Of a stretch of DNA of 64,000 bases, positions 2,420-55,421 are shown piece after piece. Made by a program: the position numbers and the translations under genes. Every line of letters starts with the position of its first letter. The first letter of the stretch is position 1. Origin of the DNA: a virus; the IMG/VR virus record IMGVR_UViG_3300028361_000013, positions 1-64,000 of that record. One strand, written 5' to 3'. The notes beneath the pieces are model-generated. The model had not been told where the DNA came from and did not search any database. It worked only from the letters and a program-made list of their open reading frames with translations.

Positions 2420-4336
2420 ATGAAAACTCTATTAACATTAATGCTTGTTTTTATTTCTATAATCACCTTTTCAAAGGGTTTAGAAGAAATGAAGTCTGAT
2501 TTGAATAGTTCTACTACTTATTCTCAGAAGATTGAGAATGTTAAGAGCATTTTAGACTTTGCCTATTCTAAAAAAGATATTGATTTAGGTTATGAATATT
2601 TCGAGTTAGGGGTTAAATTAGCTCAGAACAGTGGTAACAAAAAAGATGAAGTTTGTGTTATAAATAAATTTGCTGACCTACAAAGTGACTTAGGTCTTTA
2701 TGATAAAGCTGTTGAGTTATATATGAGCTCGCAAGATTTGCTTAAGAATGAAGTAAATGTAGAGAGAGAAAAGCATGATTTATTTATTTCTTTGTCTATT
2801 ACATTTCAGCACAAAGGAGATTTTGTAAAAGCTCTTGACTATGCAAAGTACTCTTTAGATATTTCTAACAACATGGGAGATGATGAGTTGATTTGTTCTT
2901 CGTTAAGATTTTTAGCAAATGTGTATCTTGAAATTGAAGAATTAGAATTGGCTCTTGAGAATTATTATTTAGCTTTAGAAAAGTCGAACAAAACTGATAA
3001 CAAAAAAGTTTCTGCTCAAATCTTCAATAATATAGGTCTCGTATATCAAAATAAAAAAGACTATAAAAATGCTGAGAAACACTTTTTCAAAGCGTATGAG
3101 TTGGCGAAAGAAATTGAATACTTCTTGTTAATTGCATATATAGAAATGGAGCTTTCAGACTTCTATAATTTAACTGAAGATTACAGTAAGTCTGAAAAGT
3201 ATTTAACTCTTGCTTTAGCTAAAGAGAAGGAGGCTAATTATATTATTTTATCTCAAAACTTATTTGATAACGCTCATGATTTATATAAGAAAACTGGAGA
3301 CTATAAAAAGTCTTTAGAGTTCTTTGAAAAGTATCAGGTTATTTCAGACTCTTTAAACAAGCAGGGTAATGACCAGGATATACTGGAAGCAGAAACTAAA
3401 TTTAGAACAAACGAAAAGGAAAAAGAGATTCAAATTCTTAATACCGAAAACCTTTTGAAGGAGTCTGAAATTAAGAAAAGAAACATTGCAATATTCTTAA
3501 CAGCAATTATTGCTGCTATAGTCCTTTCGATGTTGTTTTTAGTACAGCGTTCAAGAAAAAAGCAGATTAGACTTACAGAAGAAATAACTCACCAACAAGT
3601 AGAAATTACAGATAGCATTAATTATGCTAAAATAATACAGGATTCTATTTTTGGAAAAAAGGAGACTATTAAAGATGTTTATGAAAACTCAAGCATTTTG
3701 TTTAAGCCAAAAGATATTGTGTCTGGAGATTTCTATTGGTTCCATAAAAATGAAAACAAATTTTTATTTACTGCAGCAGATTGTACTGGTCACGGAGTTC
3801 CAGGAGCAATGATGAGTATGATTGGAAACAATTCTCTAAATGATTCTGTTAAAGTCAAAGGGATGACAAAACCTTCTGAAATTTTAGACCACTTAAGCAA
3901 GTATGTTTATGATGCATTCTCTGACAACGATACAAAGAATGGTATGGACATAGCTCTTTGTTCTCTTGACTTAGAAACAAAAGAGTTAGAATACTCTGGA
4001 GCATTTAACTCTTTATATCTTTTTAAGAAAAGTGGAGATTTAATAGAAGTTAAGTCTGATAAAAATTATATTGGAGACATTGATTCTGTCTATACTAACC
4101 ATAAACTTCAATTAGAAGAGGGTGATTGTATTTATATTATGAGTGATGGTTATGTTGACCAGTTTGGTGGAGATAAAAACAAGAAGTATAAAACAGCAAA
4201 CTTAAAAAAAGAAATACAAAAAAACATTGACCAGCCAGTAGAAGTTCAAAAGGAAATTTTAGAAAAAAACTTTGATGCTTGGATGGGGGTGAACGAACAA
4301 GTTGATGATGTTTGTTTAGTAATAGTTAGAGTTTAA
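2420..4336 (+). CDS. TPR-SpoIIE family membrane serine phosphatase
   Basis: A 638-residue protein: signal peptide (residues 1-20), a long array of tetratricopeptide repeats (~35-320), one membrane helix (~357-377, followed by RSRKK), a short coiled linker, then a C-terminal PP2C/SpoIIE phosphatase domain (~410-638). The domain shows GDFYW, the metal-binding AADCTGHGVPGA motif, SDGYVDQFGG and a final DDVCLVIV. In Bacteroidota this architecture is common for RsbU-like regulators that dephosphorylate anti-sigma antagonists. It has its own phage-type promoter. It is probably host-derived and may tune host signalling during infection (inference). Confidence 0.85.
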   Translation: MKTLLTLMLVFISIITFSKGLEEMKSDLNSSTTYSQKIENVKSILDFAYSKKDIDLGYEYFELGVKLAQNSGNKKDEVCVINKFADLQSDLGLYDKAVELYMSSQDLLKNEVNVEREKHDLFISLSITFQHKGDFVKALDYAKYSLDISNNMGDDELICSSLRFLANVYLEIEELELALENYYLALEKSNKTDNKKVSAQIFNNIGLVYQNKKDYKNAEKHFFKAYELAKEIEYFLLIAYIEMELSDFYNLTEDYSKSEKYLTLALAKEKEANYIILSQNLFDNAHDLYKKTGDYKKSLEFFEKYQVISDSLNKQGNDQDILEAETKFRTNEKEKEIQILNTENLLKESEIKKRNIAIFLTAIIAAIVLSMLFLVQRSRKKQIRLTEEITHQQVEITDSINYAKIIQDSIFGKKETIKDVYENSSILFKPKDIVSGDFYWFHKNENKFLFTAADCTGHGVPGAMMSMIGNNSLNDSVKVKGMTKPSEILDHLSKYVYDAFSDNDTKNGMDIALCSLDLETKELEYSGAFNSLYLFKKSGDLIEVKSDKNYIGDIDSVYTNHKLQLEEGDCIYIMSDGYVDQFGGDKNKKYKTANLKKEIQKNIDQPVEVQKEILEKNFDAWMGVNEQVDDVCLVIVRV

Positions 4337-17676: not shown

Positions 17677-18312
17677 ATGTTCAAAAGAGAAAAGAGTATA
17701 GAACAAATTATAGATGGTTGTATTTCTGGAAAAAGAAATTGCCAAGAACTTTTGTTCAAAGAGTTTCATGGAAAAATGAAAGTAGTTGTCATGAGATACA
17801 TAAAAGATGCAGATGCTGCTCAAGACGTATTAAGTGATGCTTTCGTAAAAGTTTTTGCAAAAATAAACAACTTTGAAAAGAGTGGAAGCATTGAAGGTTG
17901 GATAAGAAAAATAGTTGCAAACACAGCCATAGATGCTATAAGAAGAAATAAAAAAACATTCTTCTTAGAAGATTCAAATGTGGTAGACCACGAATCATTA
18001 GTTACACAGCCAGAAGGAGATGGTTTCGAAATAGAAGGCATCAACACTTCTGAAATAACGCCAGAAGAATATTTAGGACTAATTCAAGAGCTGTCGCCTT
18101 GTTATAGAGCTGTATTCAATATGAAGTTGTTTGAAGATATGACTCATAAGGATATTGCAAATAAACTTGAAATAGCTGAGGGAACATCTAAATCAAATTA
18201 TTCAAAAGCAAGAGGTATTTTGAAGGATAAAGTTATCAATCTGGTAAAAGAGAAAGATAAAGTGCAAGAAAAAATGAAACTTTTATACAAAGAAGTTGAC
18301 GTTGCAAAATAA
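17677..18312 (+). CDS. ECF-type sigma factor
   Basis: A 211-residue ECF sigma-70 family protein. Region 2 is visible as AQDVLSDAFVKVFAKI and GWIRKIVANTAIDAIRRNK; region 4 as LSPCYRAVFNMKLFEDMTHKDIANKLEIAEGT, with the helix-turn-helix ahead of KSNYSKARGILK. It belongs to the type that is plentiful in Bacteroidota. Together with the RpoD-like factor at 10382, the phage encodes two sigma factors. No target promoter can be assigned. Confidence 0.9.
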   Translation: MFKREKSIEQIIDGCISGKRNCQELLFKEFHGKMKVVVMRYIKDADAAQDVLSDAFVKVFAKINNFEKSGSIEGWIRKIVANTAIDAIRRNKKTFFLEDSNVVDHESLVTQPEGDGFEIEGINTSEITPEEYLGLIQELSPCYRAVFNMKLFEDMTHKDIANKLEIAEGTSKSNYSKARGILKDKVINLVKEKDKVQEKMKLLYKEVDVAK

Positions 18313-18381: not shown

Positions 18382-18861
18382 ATGGATACGACTGATTACA
18401 GCAAGTTCTTAAAAGACATAGAGAACCAAGCTCATCTTGAATATGATGAAAGCCATGGAATTCGCTCAAGAGGGTTTAGCATGAAGTCAAAAAGTTTTGA
18501 TAGATTTAATCTTGGAATGTATGATGTCTTAATTTCAGAAGATGTTAGAGAGATTGTAGAAAGACTTGGAGCTCTTGGTCCAGAAATTGATGGAGAGTTG
18601 ATTAATTTCTTTGAAACTCATTATAAAGGGTGGAGCTTCGTATTGTGCATATTTGATGGAAATGAAGAAATGGACTCACAACCAATAACTTTTGAGTACG
18701 AGCCATTTCACTACAATTGGTTATACTTCCCTACAATGGATTCTCACTCTGGAGGAGCACCAAGTTTCATAAAACAGTTGCGGAAACCCAATCATCGACT
18801 TGTCGTGGTTGGGAGGAAAGCAACTTCCCCTAAGTTAAATTTATTATATGCAAATATATAA
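18382..18861 (+). pseudogene. Unknown gene, 5' part, cut by a hairpin element
   Basis: The frame (ATG 18382, or TTG 18364) encodes ~133 genuine-looking residues to about 18776 (SGGAPSFIK). It then reads into the hairpin element (18777-18824) and an AT palindrome. The following ORF at 18915 appears to be the remaining 3' part in another frame. The insertion looks like a ~130-bp TnpB-dependent mini-element. No domain recognised. Confidence 0.5.
18777..18824 (+). repeat. TnpB-type hairpin, copy b (GGAAA type)
   Basis: An outer stem GTTGC/GCAAC encloses GGAAA, an inner stem CCCAATCATCGAC (18787-18799)/GTCGTGGTTGGG (18802-18813) and AGGAAA. It matches copy d (54375-54421, opposite strand), where the outer stem is GTCTGC/GCAGGC. 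The paired changes argue for a conserved RNA fold such as a guide-RNA scaffold. Confidence 0.65.
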
Positions 18862-18875
18862 AATAAATTTAACTT
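18832..18875. repeat. AT-rich perfect palindrome
   Basis: AAGTTAAATTTATT (18832-18845) is exactly complementary to 18862-18875 across a 16-nt loop. It directly follows hairpin copy b and is probably the terminal part of the same inserted element; it could also work as a bidirectional terminator. Confidence 0.5.
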
Positions 18876-18914
18876 AACTTCTGTTTTTTCTTTTTTTTTA
18901 TTCATCCTATAAAG

Positions 18915-20284: not shown

Positions 20285-21856
20285 ATGCGTAAATTATCAG
20301 AACAAGAAATAGTAAGACGAGAGCATCTTCAAGCGATGATTGACCTGGGTATTAATCCTTATCCAGCTGAGCCGTTTATCAATGATGTTGAGAATGGAGC
20401 TCGTATAAGATATGATTGTACAAGTGTTTGGGAAATGTTTGATACGCTTCAACATTTTTCGACAGAACTTCAAATTGAGCACATGGGAAGGACTGTTAAG
20501 TTGTCTGGAAGGCTAATGAGTAAGAACATAATGGGAAAAGCATCTTTCTTTAAATTACAAGATGATTCAGAAAGAAGAATGCAAGTGTTCATCTCAAGAG
20601 ACGAGCTTTGTCCAGACGAAGACAAAACAATGTACAATACAGTTTTTAAGAAACTGGTTGACCTTGGTGACTTTGTTGGTGTTGAAGGTAAAATGTTTGT
20701 CACTCAAACTGGTGAACTAACTATTCGTGCAACAAAGTTTACAATACTTTCTAAGTCTTTAAAACCTCTTCCTACTGTTAAGAAAGATGAGGAAGGAAAT
20801 GTTCACGATTCTTTTGAGAACCAAGAGATGAAGTATCGTCAAAGATATGTTGACCTTGTGGTAAACCCAGATTCAAAAAAAGTATTTAGAGATAGAACAC
20901 GAATAATTCGAACAATACGTGAAGTATTGGATGAAGAATTTTTCATGGAAGTTGAGACTCCAGTTTTACAGCCAATTCATGGTGGTGCAACCGCAAAGCC
21001 TTTTATGACACATCACAATAAATTGGACATTCCTCTTTATTTGAGAATTGCCAATGAGCTATATCTTAAGAGGTTGATTGTTGGAGGATTCGAAAGAGTG
21101 TATGAATTTGCTAAAGATTTCAGAAACGAAGGAATGAGCAGGTTCCATAATCCAGAGTTTACTCAAGTTGAGTTGTACGCAGCCAATAGAGATTATATGT
21201 GGATGATGGACTTTTGTGAGCAGATTGTAAAAAAAGCAGCATTCTCAATTGTTGATGATGTTGAAGCTGTGTTCGGAGAGAATAAAATTAGCTTCTTTGG
21301 AGAATTCGAAAAAATAAAGTTCTTTGATGCGATTGAAAGATATTCTGGATGTCAAGCAATGAGCATGACAGATAATGAGCTTAGAGTATTTCTTGCTGGT
21401 CATGAAATCCATGTTGATAACTCTATGGGTAGAGCGAAGCTTCTTGATGAAATTTTCGGAGAGTTTGTTGAGCCTAAATTGATTCAACCAACGTTTGTAT
21501 ACGATTATCCAGTTGAGATGTCTCCGCTTGCTAAAAAGCATAGAACAGACGCTGGCATAGTTGAAAGATTTGAACTTGTAATCAATGGTAAAGAAGTTGC
21601 TAATGCTTATAGTGAGCTTAATGACCCAATTGACCAGAGAGAAAGGTTTGAAGAGCAACTTCGTCTTGCTGGAGCAGGTGATGATGAAGCTATGGGTATG
21701 GATGAAGATTTCTTGAGAGCATTGGAATATGGGATGCCTCCTACTGCAGGTCTTGGTATTGGAATTGATAGATTGGTAATGATTTTAACTGAACAAAAAT
21801 CAATTCAAGATGTGTTATTTTTCCCTCAAATGAGACCAGAGAATATAAATTATTAA
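20285..21856 (+). CDS. lysS: Lysyl-tRNA synthetase, class II
   Basis: A 523-residue, full-length class II lysyl-tRNA synthetase. It has an N-terminal OB-fold anticodon domain (~55-160) followed by the catalytic domain: motif 2 FRNEGMSRFHNPEFTQVE and motif 3 GLGIGIDRLVM near the end. All core motifs look intact, so it should charge tRNA-Lys. Whole aminoacyl-tRNA synthetases are found in some very large phages. A likely purpose is to keep translation going or to replace a host enzyme under attack (inference). Confidence 0.95.
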   Translation: MRKLSEQEIVRREHLQAMIDLGINPYPAEPFINDVENGARIRYDCTSVWEMFDTLQHFSTELQIEHMGRTVKLSGRLMSKNIMGKASFFKLQDDSERRMQVFISRDELCPDEDKTMYNTVFKKLVDLGDFVGVEGKMFVTQTGELTIRATKFTILSKSLKPLPTVKKDEEGNVHDSFENQEMKYRQRYVDLVVNPDSKKVFRDRTRIIRTIREVLDEEFFMEVETPVLQPIHGGATAKPFMTHHNKLDIPLYLRIANELYLKRLIVGGFERVYEFAKDFRNEGMSRFHNPEFTQVELYAANRDYMWMMDFCEQIVKKAAFSIVDDVEAVFGENKISFFGEFEKIKFFDAIERYSGCQAMSMTDNELRVFLAGHEIHVDNSMGRAKLLDEIFGEFVEPKLIQPTFVYDYPVEMSPLAKKHRTDAGIVERFELVINGKEVANAYSELNDPIDQRERFEEQLRLAGAGDDEAMGMDEDFLRALEYGMPPTAGLGIGIDRLVMILTEQKSIQDVLFFPQMRPENINY

Positions 21857-22179: not shown

Positions 22180-23742
22180 ATGAAAAAATTAAAACAAACT
22201 GAAGGAACAATAGAGTTTATAAGAAACGGTCATGCTTACTTAATATTAGAAGGCAATGATGATTTGTTCATTCACAAAAAAAATACAGGCCAAGCTCTTC
22301 ATGGAGATAAGGTCACAGTGTCAATTGTTAAAGACGAAAGCGGAAAAGGTACTGGAGAACAAGGTATAGTAGAAAGAGTTGAAGATAGAAGCAAAACTGA
22401 ATTCTCTGGTGTAATTGACATCAATGAAGAAAAGGGATTTGCTTTTGTTAGAACTTCTGGAGGTAAGATGCCAGTAGATTTCTATGTTCCAATGGAGCAC
22501 CTAAATGGCGCTAAGGATGGAGAGGTTGTGGTTGTTAAATTGCACCGATGGCACAAGAAGGACAAAAGCCCAAAAGGTATTGTCACAAAAGTGATTGGCG
22601 CAGCTGAAACTCACGAGACTGAAATGAACAGCATTATGTTTAAGCATAATATTGATTATGATTTCTCTGATGCAGTTATGAAAGAAGCTGAAGACATTCC
22701 AGTTGAGATTTCTGAAAAGGAGATTCTTAAGCGTAGAGATATGCGTGGAGATTTGACAATCACCATTGACCCAGACAGTGCAAAAGATTTTGATGATGCA
22801 ATATCATTCAAGAAATTGGATAATGGGAATTACGAGATTGGAGTTCACATTGCTGATGTAACACATTATGTTAGACCAGGAAGTGAATTGGATAAGGAAG
22901 CATTTAGAAGAGCGACTTCAGTTTATCTTGTTGATAGATGTATTCCAATGCTCCCAGAGAGGCTTTCTAATGGAATCTGTAGCTTACGACCAAATGAAGA
23001 AAAACTGACATTCTCGGTTATCTTTCAGATGTCTCCAGATGGAGAAGTTGTTAAGCACAATTTCAAGAAGACTGTAATCAACTCTGATTGTAGATTGACG
23101 TATGAAGAAGCGCAAGAGATTATAGAAGGAACTGCCGACAGAATAGAAAGCGTTCCACCAGGGATGGGAGTATTCGATTGTGTGAAAATATTGAATGGCA
23201 TTGCAAAGAAAGTTAGAAAGAAAAGATTTAAAGATGGAGCGGTCACCTTCAACAGAAGAGAGCCAAACTTTGTTCTTGATGAGGACAATGTTCCAATAGA
23301 TGTTTTCTTTCATGAATCTGCAGATGCTCATCAACTTATTGAAGAGTACATGTTATTGGCTAACAAGTATGTTGCAACTTATGCACACGGACTTACCAAG
23401 CCATTCGTATATAGAACACACGACCTTCCAAGTGAAGAGAAACTGCATGAGTTAAGTTTATTCGTATCTCAGTTCGGTTATCACTTTAATACTTCAGGAA
23501 GCATGGAAGCTACCAAAGCATCTCTCAACGAGATGTTGAAGAAAGCGTCTGGAAGTGGTGAGGAAGCAATGATTTCAACGTTAGCTATTCGCTCAATGTC
23601 GAAAGCAGTTTATTCAACTCAAATAATTGGTCACTATGGACTCGGATTCAAGCACTATAGTCACTTTACATCACCAATAAGAAGATACAGCGATATTTTG
23701 AGTCATAGATTATTGTGGTATTATATGAATGGCGGACAATAG
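22180..23742 (+). CDS. rnr: RNase R, cold-shock and catalytic (RNB) part
   Basis: 520 residues covering two N-terminal cold-shock-like domains and the RNB exonuclease domain. The active-site motif DPDSAKDFDDA is at ~198-208, and the domain closes with HFTSPIRRYSDILSHRLL. Normal RNase R continues with a helix and an S1 RNA-binding domain; here a stop follows YYMNGGQ. The missing part is found at 30933-31310, beyond a 7.2-kb cassette array. RNase R degrades RNA 3'-5'. The two pieces may assemble, as in other phage split enzymes (inference). Confidence 0.9.
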   Translation: MKKLKQTEGTIEFIRNGHAYLILEGNDDLFIHKKNTGQALHGDKVTVSIVKDESGKGTGEQGIVERVEDRSKTEFSGVIDINEEKGFAFVRTSGGKMPVDFYVPMEHLNGAKDGEVVVVKLHRWHKKDKSPKGIVTKVIGAAETHETEMNSIMFKHNIDYDFSDAVMKEAEDIPVEISEKEILKRRDMRGDLTITIDPDSAKDFDDAISFKKLDNGNYEIGVHIADVTHYVRPGSELDKEAFRRATSVYLVDRCIPMLPERLSNGICSLRPNEEKLTFSVIFQMSPDGEVVKHNFKKTVINSDCRLTYEEAQEIIEGTADRIESVPPGMGVFDCVKILNGIAKKVRKKRFKDGAVTFNRREPNFVLDEDNVPIDVFFHESADAHQLIEEYMLLANKYVATYAHGLTKPFVYRTHDLPSEEKLHELSLFVSQFGYHFNTSGSMEATKASLNEMLKKASGSGEEAMISTLAIRSMSKAVYSTQIIGHYGLGFKHYSHFTSPIRRYSDILSHRLLWYYMNGGQ

Positions 23743-49499: not shown

Positions 49500-50234
49500 A
49501 TGAATACAACATTTATTTACGTTTTAATTGACCCAGACACAAACTTTGTTAGATATGTTGGTAAATCAAATAACCCAAAGAGAAGATATTATAAACATTG
49601 CTCTAAGAGTAAAAAGAAAACACATAAAGTTAATTGGATTAATAAATTATTAAATGAAAATAAAAAACCAATTTTAGAAGTTATAGATGAAGTTCTTGTT
49701 GAAGATTGGTCATTTTGGGAGTCTTATTGGATTTGTCAATTTAAAACATGGGGTTTTAAATTGACAAACAACACTAATGGCGGAGATGGCTGTACGTTTG
49801 CAAATAAAACTTCTTTTAAAAAAGGCAATGTTTCTTGGAACAAAGGAAAGAGTATGAGCGAAGAAGCTAAAGAACATTTAAGGCAATGTAACTTAGGAAA
49901 AAAGCATAGTAATAAGACTAAGGAAAAAATGTCTGAAACAAGAGGGGGAAAATTGCCAGGTAATATTGAGATTTTTTTAGAGAATGGTAAAAAAAGTAGA
50001 CTTAAAAAAGGTGATGAATCTTGGAATAAAGGTAAAAAAGGCTATAAAATTGGAGGAAAAAAATCCTCAAAAATAGTTCAACAGATAAATTCAAATGAAA
50101 AAGTTATTAACGAATTTGTTGGATGTAAAGAAGCGGCTGATTTCATGGGAGTGACCTATGCAGCTATTAGCAAGTGTTGTAGAGATGTTAATAAAACATC
50201 TTGTGGTTTTAAATGGAAGTATAAATATGAGTAA
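49500..50234 (+). CDS. GIY-YIG homing endonuclease in coaE
   Basis: A 244-residue protein: IYVLIDPD...RYVGKSNNPKRRYYKH (GIY-YIG core), WESYWICQFKTWGF (catalytic Glu region), NGGDG, repeated NUMOD3 units (SWNKGKSMSEEAKEHLRQ; ESWNKGKKG) and a terminal NUMOD1-like GCKEAADFMGVTYAAISKCC...GFKWKY. It is inserted at the P-loop codons of coaE; its stop overlaps the new coaE start by eight bases. Confidence 0.88.
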   Translation: MNTTFIYVLIDPDTNFVRYVGKSNNPKRRYYKHCSKSKKKTHKVNWINKLLNENKKPILEVIDEVLVEDWSFWESYWICQFKTWGFKLTNNTNGGDGCTFANKTSFKKGNVSWNKGKSMSEEAKEHLRQCNLGKKHSNKTKEKMSETRGGKLPGNIEIFLENGKKSRLKKGDESWNKGKKGYKIGGKKSSKIVQQINSNEKVINEFVGCKEAADFMGVTYAAISKCCRDVNKTSCGFKWKYKYE

Positions 50235-50880
50235 ATTGTTTAGAGTGTTAGTTACGGGTTCTATTGGGTCAGGAAAAACAACGGCCTGCAAATTGTTTGA
50301 AGAACTTGGAGTGCCAGTGTTCTATTCTGATGAGGCAGCCAGAAGTTTGATGGATACAAATCCGTTTATAATGATGAATGTCAAAAAGTACTTTGGAGAT
50401 GATATATACGTTAAGAAGTATGACAAAAAGAAAGTTTCTGTTAAAGAGGAATTAGATAGAAAGAAGCTTGCCAGTATTGTATTTAATGATAAAGATAAGT
50501 TGGATATACTAAATGAAATTGTTCATCCAGCTGTTGGAGAAGCTTTTGAAGACTGGTGTGAGGTCCAGGAAACTATATTAAAAGATTCAGAATATGTGAT
50601 TGAGGAAGCTGCAATTGCAATAGAACTTGATATTCATCATAAATTTGATTATATCGTTGTAGTGACAGCTGAAGATTCTGTTAGAATTGAAAGAGTTATG
50701 GCTCGTGACAATTGTACAAGACAAGATGTAATTGATAGGATGAATAATCAGGTTTCCGAAGAAGTTAGATGCAGTCATGCTGATATGATAATAAGCAATA
50801 ATAACTTTCCAAACCTTAAGTGTCAAATTAGTTCTGCAAACAAAAAAATACTTAAGGCTATAAAAAGCTTGCAAGAGTAG
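50227..50880 (+). CDS. coaE: Dephospho-CoA kinase
   Basis: A 217-residue kinase with P-loop GSIGSGKTTA (11-20), VFYSDEAAR, NEIVHPAV and RDNCTRQDVIDRMNNQ, as in CoaE, which makes CoA from dephospho-CoA. ATG 50227 overlaps the endonuclease stop, so expression is coupled to it. An in-frame Met at 50158 lies inside the endonuclease and is less likely. CoA biosynthesis is an unusual phage cargo; related deoxynucleoside monophosphate kinases share this fold and cannot be fully excluded. Confidence 0.85.
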   Translation: MSKLFRVLVTGSIGSGKTTACKLFEELGVPVFYSDEAARSLMDTNPFIMMNVKKYFGDDIYVKKYDKKKVSVKEELDRKKLASIVFNDKDKLDILNEIVHPAVGEAFEDWCEVQETILKDSEYVIEEAAIAIELDIHHKFDYIVVVTAEDSVRIERVMARDNCTRQDVIDRMNNQVSEEVRCSHADMIISNNNFPNLKCQISSANKKILKAIKSLQE

Positions 50881-52280: not shown

Positions 52281-52613
52281 ATGAGTTGGAAAGATAAGAC
52301 ATTTAAAGAAAAGAAGGTGTTCTACAAGGAGCGTCAAGTGTTTTTTGATGCTGTTAAGTCTGACAAGGATGGTGAAGATTCTGTTATTAAGTATAGTGGT
52401 GAAATGTATAAACTTGTTTCTCCAGTAGAATTTTGGGAATATGTAGAAGATAAGTGGCAGGGCAAATGTGTTATTTTTAGCAAAGCCTACAAATCTAATA
52501 CTATTGTCGATTGGTGGTATAGTAGCAGAAATGGTTTTAGATTCGACAACGAAAAAGGAGACAAATCAAGAAAAGATAAGGAAAACGTATTGTGTTTTGC
52601 TGAAAAAATATAA
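52281..52613 (+). CDS. Unknown protein, 110 aa
   Basis: A basic, aromatic-rich protein (PVEFWEYVEDKW; IVDWWYSSRNGFRFDN). Not recognised. It is followed by a possible leader peptide and a hairpin. Confidence 0.6.
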   Translation: MSWKDKTFKEKKVFYKERQVFFDAVKSDKDGEDSVIKYSGEMYKLVSPVEFWEYVEDKWQGKCVIFSKAYKSNTIVDWWYSSRNGFRFDNEKGDKSRKDKENVLCFAEKI

Positions 52614-52615
52614 AA

Positions 52616-52648
52616 ATGAAAAAAGTAATAGAGATTTCTTACAGGTAA
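52616..52648 (+). CDS. Possible 10-codon leader peptide
   Basis: ATG 52616 gives MKKVIEISYR and a stop at 52646-52648, inside the 5' arm of the hairpin that covers the next start codon. Ribosomes on this leader would disturb the outer stem (TTTCTTACA/TGTAAGAAA). It may be an attenuation-like switch or chance. Confidence 0.3.
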   Translation: MKKVIEISYR

Positions 52649-52697
52649 TGAGCTTGGTGCTCAACTCAAGCACACCAAGCTATAACAATGTAAGAAA
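52635..52697 (+). promoter_or_regulatory. Two-tier mRNA hairpin over a start codon
   Basis: Outer stem TTTCTTACA (52635-52643) with TGTAAGAAA (52689-52697), inner stem AGCTTGGTG (52651-52659) with CACCAAGCT (52673-52681), all perfect. The outer 3' arm includes the A of the ATG at 52697, so the fold should hide the start. Confidence 0.6.
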
Positions 52698-52975
52698 TGA
52701 AAAACATGAAAAGAGCGTACCGTAGGTACAAAAAAGAGGTTCATCTAAAGAGAAGAGCCAGAAATTATTATGACTGGAGCTGGTCTTATAGTATAAACAA
52801 TGATAATCTTTGTTGGGCTGATTACTGGAAAGAAGTCCAGTCTGGAGAATCTGGAATCTGGATGAGACACACAGGGAAAGTTTGTAGCTGCTCAATGTGT
52901 TCTTGGCCAATTTATAAGAAACCAACTGCTGAAGATGTTCGTAAGATTATCGAAGAGCAGATGAACGATATTTAA
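52697..52975 (+). CDS. Small Cys-motif protein of Bacteroidota phages
   Basis: A 92-residue protein: a basic N-terminus (KRAYRRYKKEVHLKRRARNYY), aromatic middle, then WMRHTGKVCSCSMCSWPI with a C-x-C-x2-C cluster. I recall many small Bacteroidota proteins of this layout, of unknown role; zinc and RNA binding are likely. Translation is probably controlled by the hairpin over its start. Confidence 0.65.
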   Translation: MKNMKRAYRRYKKEVHLKRRARNYYDWSWSYSINNDNLCWADYWKEVQSGESGIWMRHTGKVCSCSMCSWPIYKKPTAEDVRKIIEEQMNDI

Positions 52976-53098
52976 GAGCAACGACAGTCAAATGTCGGGA
53001 GGGTGGTGCAATATTCATAGACACCATGGCCTGTAAAGCCACGAGTTGAAAAGGGAAAAGAGCACTTAAGTACCTTAGTAGAATGTAGGTGTCAATTA

Positions 53099-53125
53099 CC
53101 CATCCACGCCAAGGCGATGAATGGG
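53099..53125 (-). ncRNA. TnpB right-end hairpin (omega-RNA end), copy c
   Basis: CCCATCCACGCC (53099-53110) pairs with GGCGATGAATGGG (53113-53125), just past the tnpB stop on the same (minus) strand. In IS605-type elements the guide RNA runs out of the tnpB 3' end through such a hairpin into flanking DNA. The element end should lie a few bases below 53099. Confidence 0.65.
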
Positions 53126-53138
53126 CTTGCAATGCCAA

Positions 53139-54290
53139 TCAGACCGTGATGGTCGTCTTGGGCTGACATGCGATTGGGCGATTGACAACGCCCTGCCCGT
53201 CAAGCAAGCTTCCTTGCGAGATGGGGTGTTTGCTCCTTCGAGCGATGTTAACTGCAGCATTAATGTCTGCATCATATACCAAGCCTGACTTTGCATAAAA
53301 TCTAACTCCTCTTCGTTCACCCTCTCGGATTCCTGAAACAGAGTCGATTTGACTGGTATATGCTGGCGAAACCAAACAAACATGTTTTCCCATGTTCTCG
53401 GCCTTATAAGTCAAAACTCTTCTTAATTCGAAGAACGGAACTTGACTCACTCCATTTTTATTTTGTGTTTTATATTTCTTTGCCTTTATTCCCTTTAGGT
53501 TCTCCAGCGCAATCACATTTGCACTTGTCTTGAGGATTTCATTGGCAACAAGATGTGTTTGATTCTTGTTCTTGTCTCTTTCTTTTCTCCTTAGCTTTTT
53601 TAAGTGCTTTCTTGAGCTCTTGGTTCCCTTGGACTGGAGACACCTCTTCTTATATCGAAGTTCTCTCTTTTCTTTGTTAAACTTTTTGTCGATGATGAGT
53701 CTGCCATCAGAAAGCGCAGCAACCCTTCGGATGCCAAGGTCAACCCCAAGACAAAGAGTGGACTTGACAGGCTCAATTGCATTGTCAAAAGTCAGCGCAA
53801 TCATTAGTTTGCCATCACGAACAAATATAAGTGGGTCAACAAATTGATGCTTGCTCATTAATTCCTCAAGCTTCGGATAAAGGACAATTGAGAATTCTTT
53901 CTTCTTTTCTTTGGTTGTTATCTTTATCTTCGTTGGCTCGCCCTTGACGTGAGAATAAAGTCTCTTGTCAAGTCTCATCGAGAGATTATGTTTCTCGAAT
54001 GGCCTCGATATTTTGTGCTTGTTGGATTTGATTGCTTTATATGATGCAAGGCACTCCATCTCGGCACGAATGACCATTTGAGAAGGGAAATTAGGGTGAG
54101 ATTCTCTTGTTGGGTGATAAAAAGTGTTATGCAATGCCTTGAGTGCGCTTAAATCCTTAAGATTAGAGAACTGAATTTGACTTGCTTCATTAACGACAGA
54201 GCGAAATTCCTCCATGATGCTCATGATTAAGCTCATGTCATCTGGGTTTGTTGGAATAAGTTCTGTGCAGTAAGTTATCACTTCTCTCAA
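53139..54290 (-). CDS. tnpB: TnpB RNA-guided nuclease
   Basis: A 383-residue TnpB (OrfB of IS200/IS605). The RuvC triad is visible: D184 in GVDLGIRR, E263 in ALENLKGI and D342 in DADINAA. The zinc finger between the last two is degenerate: positions expected to be Cys read D316, S319, Y332 and S335. No tnpA is in the window, so it is non-autonomous. TnpB cuts DNA guided by RNA from its own 3' end. A TATTTATAATAAAAA element lies directly upstream. Confidence 0.92.
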   Translation of the reverse strand: MREVITYCTELIPTNPDDMSLIMSIMEEFRSVVNEASQIQFSNLKDLSALKALHNTFYHPTRESHPNFPSQMVIRAEMECLASYKAIKSNKHKISRPFEKHNLSMRLDKRLYSHVKGEPTKIKITTKEKKKEFSIVLYPKLEELMSKHQFVDPLIFVRDGKLMIALTFDNAIEPVKSTLCLGVDLGIRRVAALSDGRLIIDKKFNKEKRELRYKKRCLQSKGTKSSRKHLKKLRRKERDKNKNQTHLVANEILKTSANVIALENLKGIKAKKYKTQNKNGVSQVPFFELRRVLTYKAENMGKHVCLVSPAYTSQIDSVSGIREGERRGVRFYAKSGLVYDADINAAVNIARRSKHPISQGSLLDGQGVVNRPIACQPKTTITV

Positions 54291-54305
54291 TTTTTATTAT
54301 AAATA
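54291..54305 (-). promoter_or_regulatory. TATTTATAATAAAAA element before tnpB
   Basis: Minus strand, directly abutting the ATG at 54290. Identical over 15 bases to the element before the GIY-YIG gene at 34025. Confidence 0.4.
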
Positions 54306-54324
54306 TATAAAAAAAAAGAAAACT

Positions 54325-54352
54325 TGAAATTAATTAAATTTTTTTGTATATT
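54325..54352 (+). promoter_or_regulatory. Bacteroidota-type promoter for the ncRNA
   Basis: TTG at ~54323-54326 and TATATTTG at 54345-54352 (TAnnTTTG), ~20 bp apart, as in Bacteroidota primary-sigma promoters. It points into the non-coding stretch that ends at the terminator 54665-54697. Confidence 0.6.
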
Positions 54353-54374
54353 TGTCGTATACTAACAAAAAGAG

Positions 54375-54421
54375 GCCTGCTCATCCCAACCACACTTCGT
54401 GATGATTGGGTTTCCGCAGAC
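54375..54421 (-). repeat. TnpB-type hairpin, copy d (GGAAA type)
   Basis: On the minus strand: outer stem GTCTGC/GCAGGC, then GGAAA, inner stem CCCAATCATCAC/GTGTGGTTGGG, then ATGA. Same fold as copy b (18777-18824) with compensating changes in the outer stem. It lies upstream of tnpB, in the same orientation as the hairpin at the tnpB end. Confidence 0.65.
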
Positions 54422-54664
54422 AAAAAACATTATGAAATCCTACCTCTCCACAATATTAAATGAAACGTGTGAGGATTAGTCTCCTCCCAATGTGCCACAC
54501 ATGGATGAAGTAGCGTGACTGCTGCAGTGGTCGGGGATGCACCCGTTATTGTATCTATACTTGCCTGATTGAAGGTTTAAGAGGATACGTGTAGGCTGTG
54601 AAGTTGATTCGCCAGGATTAGTGGAGCCCACCTTGTGATAGCACGAGCTTAGGGTAAGTGAATA

Positions 54665-54697
54665 AAGCAGTAAGAATTAACTTACTGCTTTTTTTTT
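54665..54697 (+). terminator. Rho-independent terminator of the ncRNA
   Basis: AAGCAGTAAG (54665-54674) pairs with CTTACTGCTT (54681-54690) and ends in eight or more T residues. Confidence 0.88.
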
Positions 54698-54698
54698 A

Positions 54699-54726
54699 GA
54701 ACATTTTTAATTTATTATCGTATAAC
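54699..54726 (+). promoter_or_regulatory. GAACATT/CGTATAAC promoter
   Basis: GAACATT at 54699 and CGTATAAC at 54719, a 20-bp register, immediately after the terminator; it serves the gene at 54744. Confidence 0.75.
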
Positions 54727-54743
54727 TTAATAAACATAAAGGC

Positions 54744-55421
54744 ATGAAGTTACATTATCCAAAATCAGATAGGTTAAACTACAAAGAAAGTATTGCTAAG
54801 TGGGAAGATAATGAATTTCCATATCAGCCTTTTTCTTGTATTGAAGAGTCTAATCATCCTGAATATGGAGTTAAACTTTTAATTGGATACAATAAAGATG
54901 GGGGGTGCATATTTATATCAAATGGTTTTATATCTGAAGTTAACCAAAAAGATAAAGTTGAAGGTTATAAAGTATCTAATCAAGAAATAAATAATTATTA
55001 TAATAAAGCCAAAAGACCATCAGATGAGCATTCTATTTTTAGAAAACCAAAAAGTGGAGATACGCTATTATGCGTAGCTGAAGGGAGATATTTAGGGTGT
55101 AAATTTGGAGAAACATACGTTGTTGATAATATTGGTGAAGACGAAAGAGTTTCTTTTACAACTGACGCTCCATATACATATGATTATAAATACTTTATTG
55201 TAGTAGATGCAAAATCTTTACAAAAAAGTGTTGAAATTATTGGCAATGAATATAGAGATAGGGCTGATTTCATTTTTGAATCTGACGTTGATGCTATGAG
55301 ATATGGAGCGATGTCGATTAAAATTATGGAAGATGACGAATTAATCGTAAGAAAAAAAGTAGAAGATACAGAACCAGAAAGAAGAAAAATATATTCATCA
55401 GAATTACTTATTAGAAAATAA
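54744..55421 (+). CDS. Unknown protein, 225 aa
   Basis: A mixed alpha/beta protein; GDTLLCVAEGRYLGCKFGETYVVDNI suggests a small beta-barrel. No catalytic motif recognised. First gene after a phage-type promoter. Confidence 0.6.
   Translation: MKLHYPKSDRLNYKESIAKWEDNEFPYQPFSCIEESNHPEYGVKLLIGYNKDGGCIFISNGFISEVNQKDKVEGYKVSNQEINNYYNKAKRPSDEHSIFRKPKSGDTLLCVAEGRYLGCKFGETYVVDNIGEDERVSFTTDAPYTYDYKYFIVVDAKSLQKSVEIIGNEYRDRADFIFESDVDAMRYGAMSIKIMEDDELIVRKKVEDTEPERRKIYSSELLIRK

Follow-up and report, generated by a model that had tools for sequence, protein, structure and literature searches.

A TnpB-element left end joined to the 3' part of a phage noncoding RNA with an L1-stalk mimic, a putative decoy for host uL1

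Introduction

The ribosomal protein uL1 binds helices H76-78 of 23S rRNA and represses the rplK-rplA operon through an mRNA mimic of this site, a repression that is released by new rRNA (PMC10931766). The head of the L1 stalk also docks on the tRNA elbow by means of a double T-loop, a device that also occurs in RNase P and T-boxes (PMC5309774, PMC4810234). Ribosomal protein genes are carried by some phages, such as those for uL1 and uL11 in PhiMa05 (PMC13157829). As far as we found, mimicry of the rRNA site for uL1 is otherwise known only as mRNA autoregulation. Among mobile elements of the IS200/IS605 group, the tnpB-only members of the IS1341 type usually lack the transposase TnpA, and the guide of TnpB is the sequence that follows the right end of the element.

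In this study, we analyzed a window of 64,000 nts, which represents the first 64 kb of a 168.6-kb virus record. A previous sequence-only reading had described positions 54325-54697 of this window as a structured noncoding RNA of about 335 nts with a host-type promoter and a terminator. This interval is a chimera, composed of the left end of an insertion sequence and the 3' part of a phage RNA gene. The latter contains a domain homologous to the L1 stalk, and we think it somewhat probable that the RNA serves as a decoy for host uL1.

Results

A tnpB element in a phage RNA gene

The ends of the mobile element were set by comparing seven tnpB loci, whose TnpB proteins are 57-100% identical and whose flanks are unrelated. 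The element is of the IS200/IS605 type without TnpA (IS1341-like), lies on the minus strand at 53091-54431, and is inserted in the RNA gene. Its right end (...TTGAC) is at 53091 and its left end at 54431, the right end TTGACA being common to five of the seven tnpB relatives. The tnpB gene (53139-54290, minus strand) encodes a product of 383 amino acids that matches the Pfam families Cas12f1-like_TNB (4.8e-13) and OrfB_IS605 (2.5e-7) as well as TnpB and Cas12f chains in PDB, and an alignment shows that the RuvC residues D184, E263, and D342 are kept in all seven relatives. A TnpB search of the genome contigs gave no match.

At the left end, a minus-strand hairpin (CTGCGGAAACCCAATC...GGTTGGGATGAGCAG, 54377-54419) occupies what we take to be the position of the palindrome recognized by TnpA in IS200/IS605. 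This end is flanked by the target motif TTCAT (54432-54436, minus strand), the predicted TAM of TnpB, which was found in six of the seven relatives and reads CTCAT in L017. The locus thus shares with tnpB-only IS200/IS605 elements a RuvC-type tnpB, a left-end hairpin, a TTCAT left-end target, and a right end ...TTGAC. It is set apart by the lack of TnpA in the record (no Y1 transposase, PF01797, was found in the 168.6 kb), by an outward promoter-like box that is kept, and by several solo left ends. This promoter-like motif (54324-54354, plus strand) consists of TTG (54324-54326), a spacer of 20 nts, and the -7 box TATATTTG (54347-54354), as the sequence-only reading had noticed. The box is kept, also pointing outward, in the contigs L005, L006, and L015 and in a further copy at 18.8 kb of the window. 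The pattern as such is no commoner than chance (14 occurrences in the window against a shuffle mean of 17.2).

The further copy first appeared as a second short match (18779-18817, minus strand) when the interval was compared with the record. Read side by side with the first, it proved to be a left end without tnpB (18765-18890, minus strand) that has the promoter-like box, the hairpin, and a TTTCAT target. Both copies in the window run from an A-rich stretch through TATATTTG and the hairpin CCCAACCAC..GATGATTGGGTTTCCGCA to ..TTATGAAA. In the window, the 18-mer GATGATTGGGTTTCCGCA has two copies, and shuffles are expected to give 0.02 occurrences even with three mismatches allowed. In other phage contigs, the left-end module stands before unrelated sequences (L005, beside tnpB; L006; L007; and L011/L012), and its hairpin recurs at 18.8 kb and in L005, L006, L011, and L015, with pair-preserving changes in L015. 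The interval 54325-54697 is not one unit because its 5' segment is a mobile left end that recurs at other sites; judging from these comparisons, the left end of the mobile element accounts for all of it as far as 54431, and 54432-54697 is flanking phage DNA.

Solo left ends, with neither tnpB nor a right end, were seen at 18765-18890 of the window (minus strand), at 2955-3085 of L006, and at 1590-1690 of L011. Two of them stop at the same A-run adjoining the hairpin. The solo ends may have arisen by deletion at A-runs, or they may represent a short non-autonomous element. In L006 and L007, the left end lies inside a gene that we take, from a reading of its sequence, to be epimerase-like. The frame of this gene seems to be without its middle around the inserted left end (L006, 2400-3200; and L007), and the junction carries an ATGAAA in the reading frame of the 3' part. 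In these two contigs, the left end could supply a promoter and a start codon to the truncated gene.

When the element is removed, positions 52976-53090 join 54432-54697 in a sequence of 379 nts without an ORF, and GTAGG and CCTAC of the rejoined flanks would form a hairpin across the insertion point. The flank past the right end (52976-53090, plus strand) probably belongs to the same RNA gene as the stalk-bearing part and would represent its 5' part. The 3' part (54432-54697, plus strand) has 266 nts, including an intrinsic terminator with an 11-bp stem, a 6-nt loop, and a T tract (54664-54697). This terminator had been correctly recognized by the sequence-only reading, as had the absence of a long plus-strand ORF from the interval and its raised GC content (44% at 54400-54699, compared with about 27-32% just downstream). 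Among the "several perfect stems" that had also been described, the left-end hairpin and the terminator are strong. Once the terminator is left out, however, the folding energy does not surpass that of shuffles, with z values of -0.31 (54358-54655) and -0.82 (54436-54655). Because of this, energy alone gives no proof of a structured RNA.

A tmRNA in the rejoined flanks was rejected, as ARAGORN finds nothing there. Rfam at gathering score reports only a tRNA in the whole window, and the T-box and RNase P family models have no match in it at gathering or relaxed thresholds. The 3' part matches no Rfam noncoding RNA family, which agrees with the earlier statement that no known RNA class was recognizable. 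For the rest of the RNA, no relatives were found by blastn in phages or by a DNA search of nine related virus records, the 16-mer GGTCGGGGATGCACCC had only chance matches in viral contigs, and synteny of the neighboring genes led to no RNA relative; the one exception to all these searches is a second contig with an identical copy. The gene after the terminator (54744) has no Pfam or phage match, and a tRNA-Arg gene is located 1 kb upstream of the RNA locus. The gene upstream of the interrupted RNA (52697-52975) has a distant homolog, gp226, in Sphingomonas phage PAU; the gap after gp226 is 75 nts there, hence that phage has no comparable RNA gene. The window also contains genes for an ECF-like sigma factor, a lysyl-tRNA synthetase-like protein, an RNase R-like exonuclease, and dephospho-CoA kinase (CoaE), listed together at 17677-18312, 20285-21856, 22180-23742, and 50158-50880.

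An L1-stalk mimic before the terminator

An Rfam search, which the sequence-only reading had proposed, gave no gathering-score match at the interval; it did reveal a match to the L1 stalk of LSU rRNA (54577-54647, plus strand) that the earlier reader had missed. In a search of 54425-54715, RF02541 (bacterial LSU) was found at 54582-54645 with 25.4 bits (E 2.3e-6 to 4e-6), spanning model positions 2140-2204 without a broken pair. The match surfaced only in searches of short stretches, and a search over 52600-54900 at an E-value threshold did not report it. The whole domain comprises H77/H78 and the junction strands of 23S rRNA, corresponds to about 2109-2180 in E. coli 23S numbering, and lies directly before the terminator.

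We then compared it with a covariance model (R1) whose training set was eleven authentic 23S stalks representing five phyla, with the window excluded; its sources are ten plasmid records and one prophage contig whose 23S gene is identical to that of Klebsiella. R1 aligns with 54577-54647 along its entire length, scoring 41.5 bits (E 1.9e-8; E-values of this model are rough by design, with bit scores unaffected), and gives no second match anywhere in the window or the 168.6-kb record. By chance, the model reaches at most 13.2 bits in 116 kb, and at most 11.7 bits in 779 kb of unrelated phage DNA.

H77, the inner 3-bp helix, and H78 are all formed, with 16 of 16 pairs being standard. Compared with the Klebsiella 23S rRNA, six of these pairs are changed on both sides and two on one side, and none is broken. 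The core unpaired bases are identical at 28 of 32 positions to Klebsiella and at 26 of 32 to Segatella, and the junction strands (AGGAUA and GAUA) are largely retained. In an alignment of 17 stalks, 99.6% of the cells pair and 12 pairs are altered on both sides, well in excess of slid controls, the alignment having been fitted to the structure and hence being biased towards pairing. The fold of the window stalk has -8.8 kcal/mol compared with a minimum free energy of -16.2 kcal/mol, so that minimum energy favors other pairings; true 23S stalks likewise lie 3.6-6.8 kcal/mol above their own minimum.

In its H77 and H78 helices, junction strands, tetraloop region, and spacing, the domain resembles the 23S L1 stalk (H76-H78; RF02541). 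Unlike the latter, it stands alone in a phage RNA of about 380 nts with a terminator, outside an rRNA gene, and both the sequences of H77 and H78 (largely) and the elbow-stacking pair have been replaced. No other LSU match was found around the stalk. Owing to the divergence of its helices, the stalk had no blastn match in E. coli. The same general fold, the double T-loop device, is present in T-box stem I and in J11/12-J12/11 of RNase P, whose family models the window does not match.

Isolated stalks in other phages

A stricter stalk pattern revealed isolated stalks in further viral contigs (L111, L154/L158, and L155/L156/L159), with R1 scores of 74-94.5 bits; the window stalk is the lowest-scoring of the isolated stalks. 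This pattern replaced a looser one, for which only chance matches were present among those listed. Three other contigs from the stalk-pattern scan (L157, L160, and L161) were rejected as coding sequence, and a window-specific stalk pattern, which was too narrow, had no match in the genome contigs. The stalk of L154/L158 is intergenic, with baseplate wedge and RNA polymerase beta'-like genes nearby, and that of L111 lies at a contig end and could continue into rRNA.

The stalk of L155/L156/L159 is part of a block of about 430 nts that is near-identical between these prophages up to its own terminator, and in L156 it exceeds the Rfam LSU gathering score with 53.9 bits. The coordinates of this prophage RNA are 9340-9900 in L155, 6610-7170 in L156, and 5880-6440 in L159, and a CI-like repressor gene is located upstream of it in L155. 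In Bordetella phages, the upstream part of the block is present and no stalk match was found. The Rfam family Burkholderiales-2 (RF02917) is the opposite strand of the 5' part of the block, and falls within the stalk-carrying prophage RNA of L155/L156. It models only 74 nts on the other strand, has no match in the window, is listed as cis-regulatory, and may be annotated on the wrong strand.

No Ribosomal_L1 gene is present in the record of the window or in six other stalk-bearing records.

Discussion

Because H76-H78 bind uL1 and none of the seven stalk records has a uL1 gene, the simplest function for a stand-alone stalk would be the binding of host uL1 in trans. The phage RNA would be made and present the H77/H78 fold in trans; host uL1 would bind to it, and such a decoy would either relieve the repression of rplK-rplA by uL1 or deprive some ribosomes of this protein. 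A close parallel is the autoregulatory site for uL1 in the mRNA of rplK/rplA (L11-L1 operon), which likewise mimics the rRNA site in another RNA. In contrast to that site, the phage RNA is not the leader of a ribosomal-protein gene, ends at a terminator before the next gene (54744), and would act in trans; it is not upstream of rplK or rplA, and the next gene has no Pfam match. Taken as a whole, the reading in which the left end of a TnpB element is fused to the 3' part of a phage RNA that acts as a uL1 decoy appears to us to have a somewhat better than even chance of being correct.

Binding to tRNA is a serious rival because the stalk docks on the tRNA elbow through its double T-loop (PMC5309774, PMC4810234), and in the phage RNA much of both junction strands (AGGAUA and GAUA) is kept. 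The phage also has the tRNA-Arg gene 1 kb upstream and the lysyl-tRNA synthetase-like gene. At the positions aligned to the elbow-stacking pair G2112-A2169, however, A and U are found, which speaks against docking, although this pair varies among bacteria as well (A/G in Firmicutes and Fusobacteria). We judge an action on tRNA to be unlikely, if still worth considering.

Nearly the same low probability is assigned to a functionless relic, i.e., a captured fragment of host 23S rRNA in decay. The sequence is clearly rRNA-like, its gene has been interrupted by an insertion, and no homolog of the full RNA was found. Decay is hard to reconcile with eight changed pairs of which none is broken, with a segment that comprises just the stalk and has a terminator behind it, and with the recurrence of stalks in phages that are not related, in three cases as part of a conserved RNA.

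A native RNA of 335 nts with its own host-type promoter, as the sequence-only reading had it, is very improbable. The promoter-like motif, the terminator, and the lack of an ORF are all real, but the motif and the first ~75 nts are a transposable left end that elsewhere stands before unrelated sequences. The motif is therefore not a native promoter, since it sits in the inserted left end, and the early expression suggested for the RNA fails for the native gene on the same ground. What survives is a structured RNA in the 3' two thirds, with the L1-stalk domain and the terminator. A match to a known decayed element, named in advance as counting against the RNA, was half borne out. Chance similarity to 23S rRNA can practically be dismissed, as the R1 score of 41.5 bits compares with 11.7 bits for the best chance match in 779 kb, even though RF02541 gives 25.4 bits, which falls short of the LSU gathering score of 50 (a value set for whole rRNA genes).

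Returning to the decoy, the insertion would have severed the stalk-bearing remnant from the native 5' region. Transcription from the outward promoter of the element may now yield a chimeric RNA of about 335 nts, with the stalk and terminator still at its 3' end. With TTCAT as the TAM and a guide taken from the right flank (ACCTACATTCTACTAAGG...), TnpB would target uninterrupted copies of the RNA gene. The insertion may represent a natural example of a noncoding RNA gene as the site of RNA-guided homing.

More broadly, the isolated stalks raise the possibility, which we rate slightly below even, that several unrelated phage lineages carry stand-alone L1-stalk-mimic RNAs acting in trans on host uL1 or tRNA. 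If true, this would be a general, undescribed route by which phages act on the translation machinery, and a trans-acting stalk RNA would be a new kind of ribosomal-protein takeover that complements phage-borne ribosomal protein genes. We found no report of a phage L1-stalk RNA in the literature within reach, which left out most subscription journals. The stalk identity makes an anonymous class of phage RNA directly and cheaply testable via uL1 binding, and cautions against writing off pieces of LSU rRNA in phage genomes as contamination.

Two further observations were made in the course of this analysis. In the RNA polymerase beta'-like gene of L158 (3-4931), an intein containing a LAGLIDADG domain is inserted behind the catalytic motif DFDGD. 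In addition, the Vibrio coralliilyticus plasmid NC_020451.1 contains, as its only such sequence, a piece of ~98 nts (4080-4178) that resembles 23S domain V just past the stalk region and is possibly another isolated rRNA fragment.
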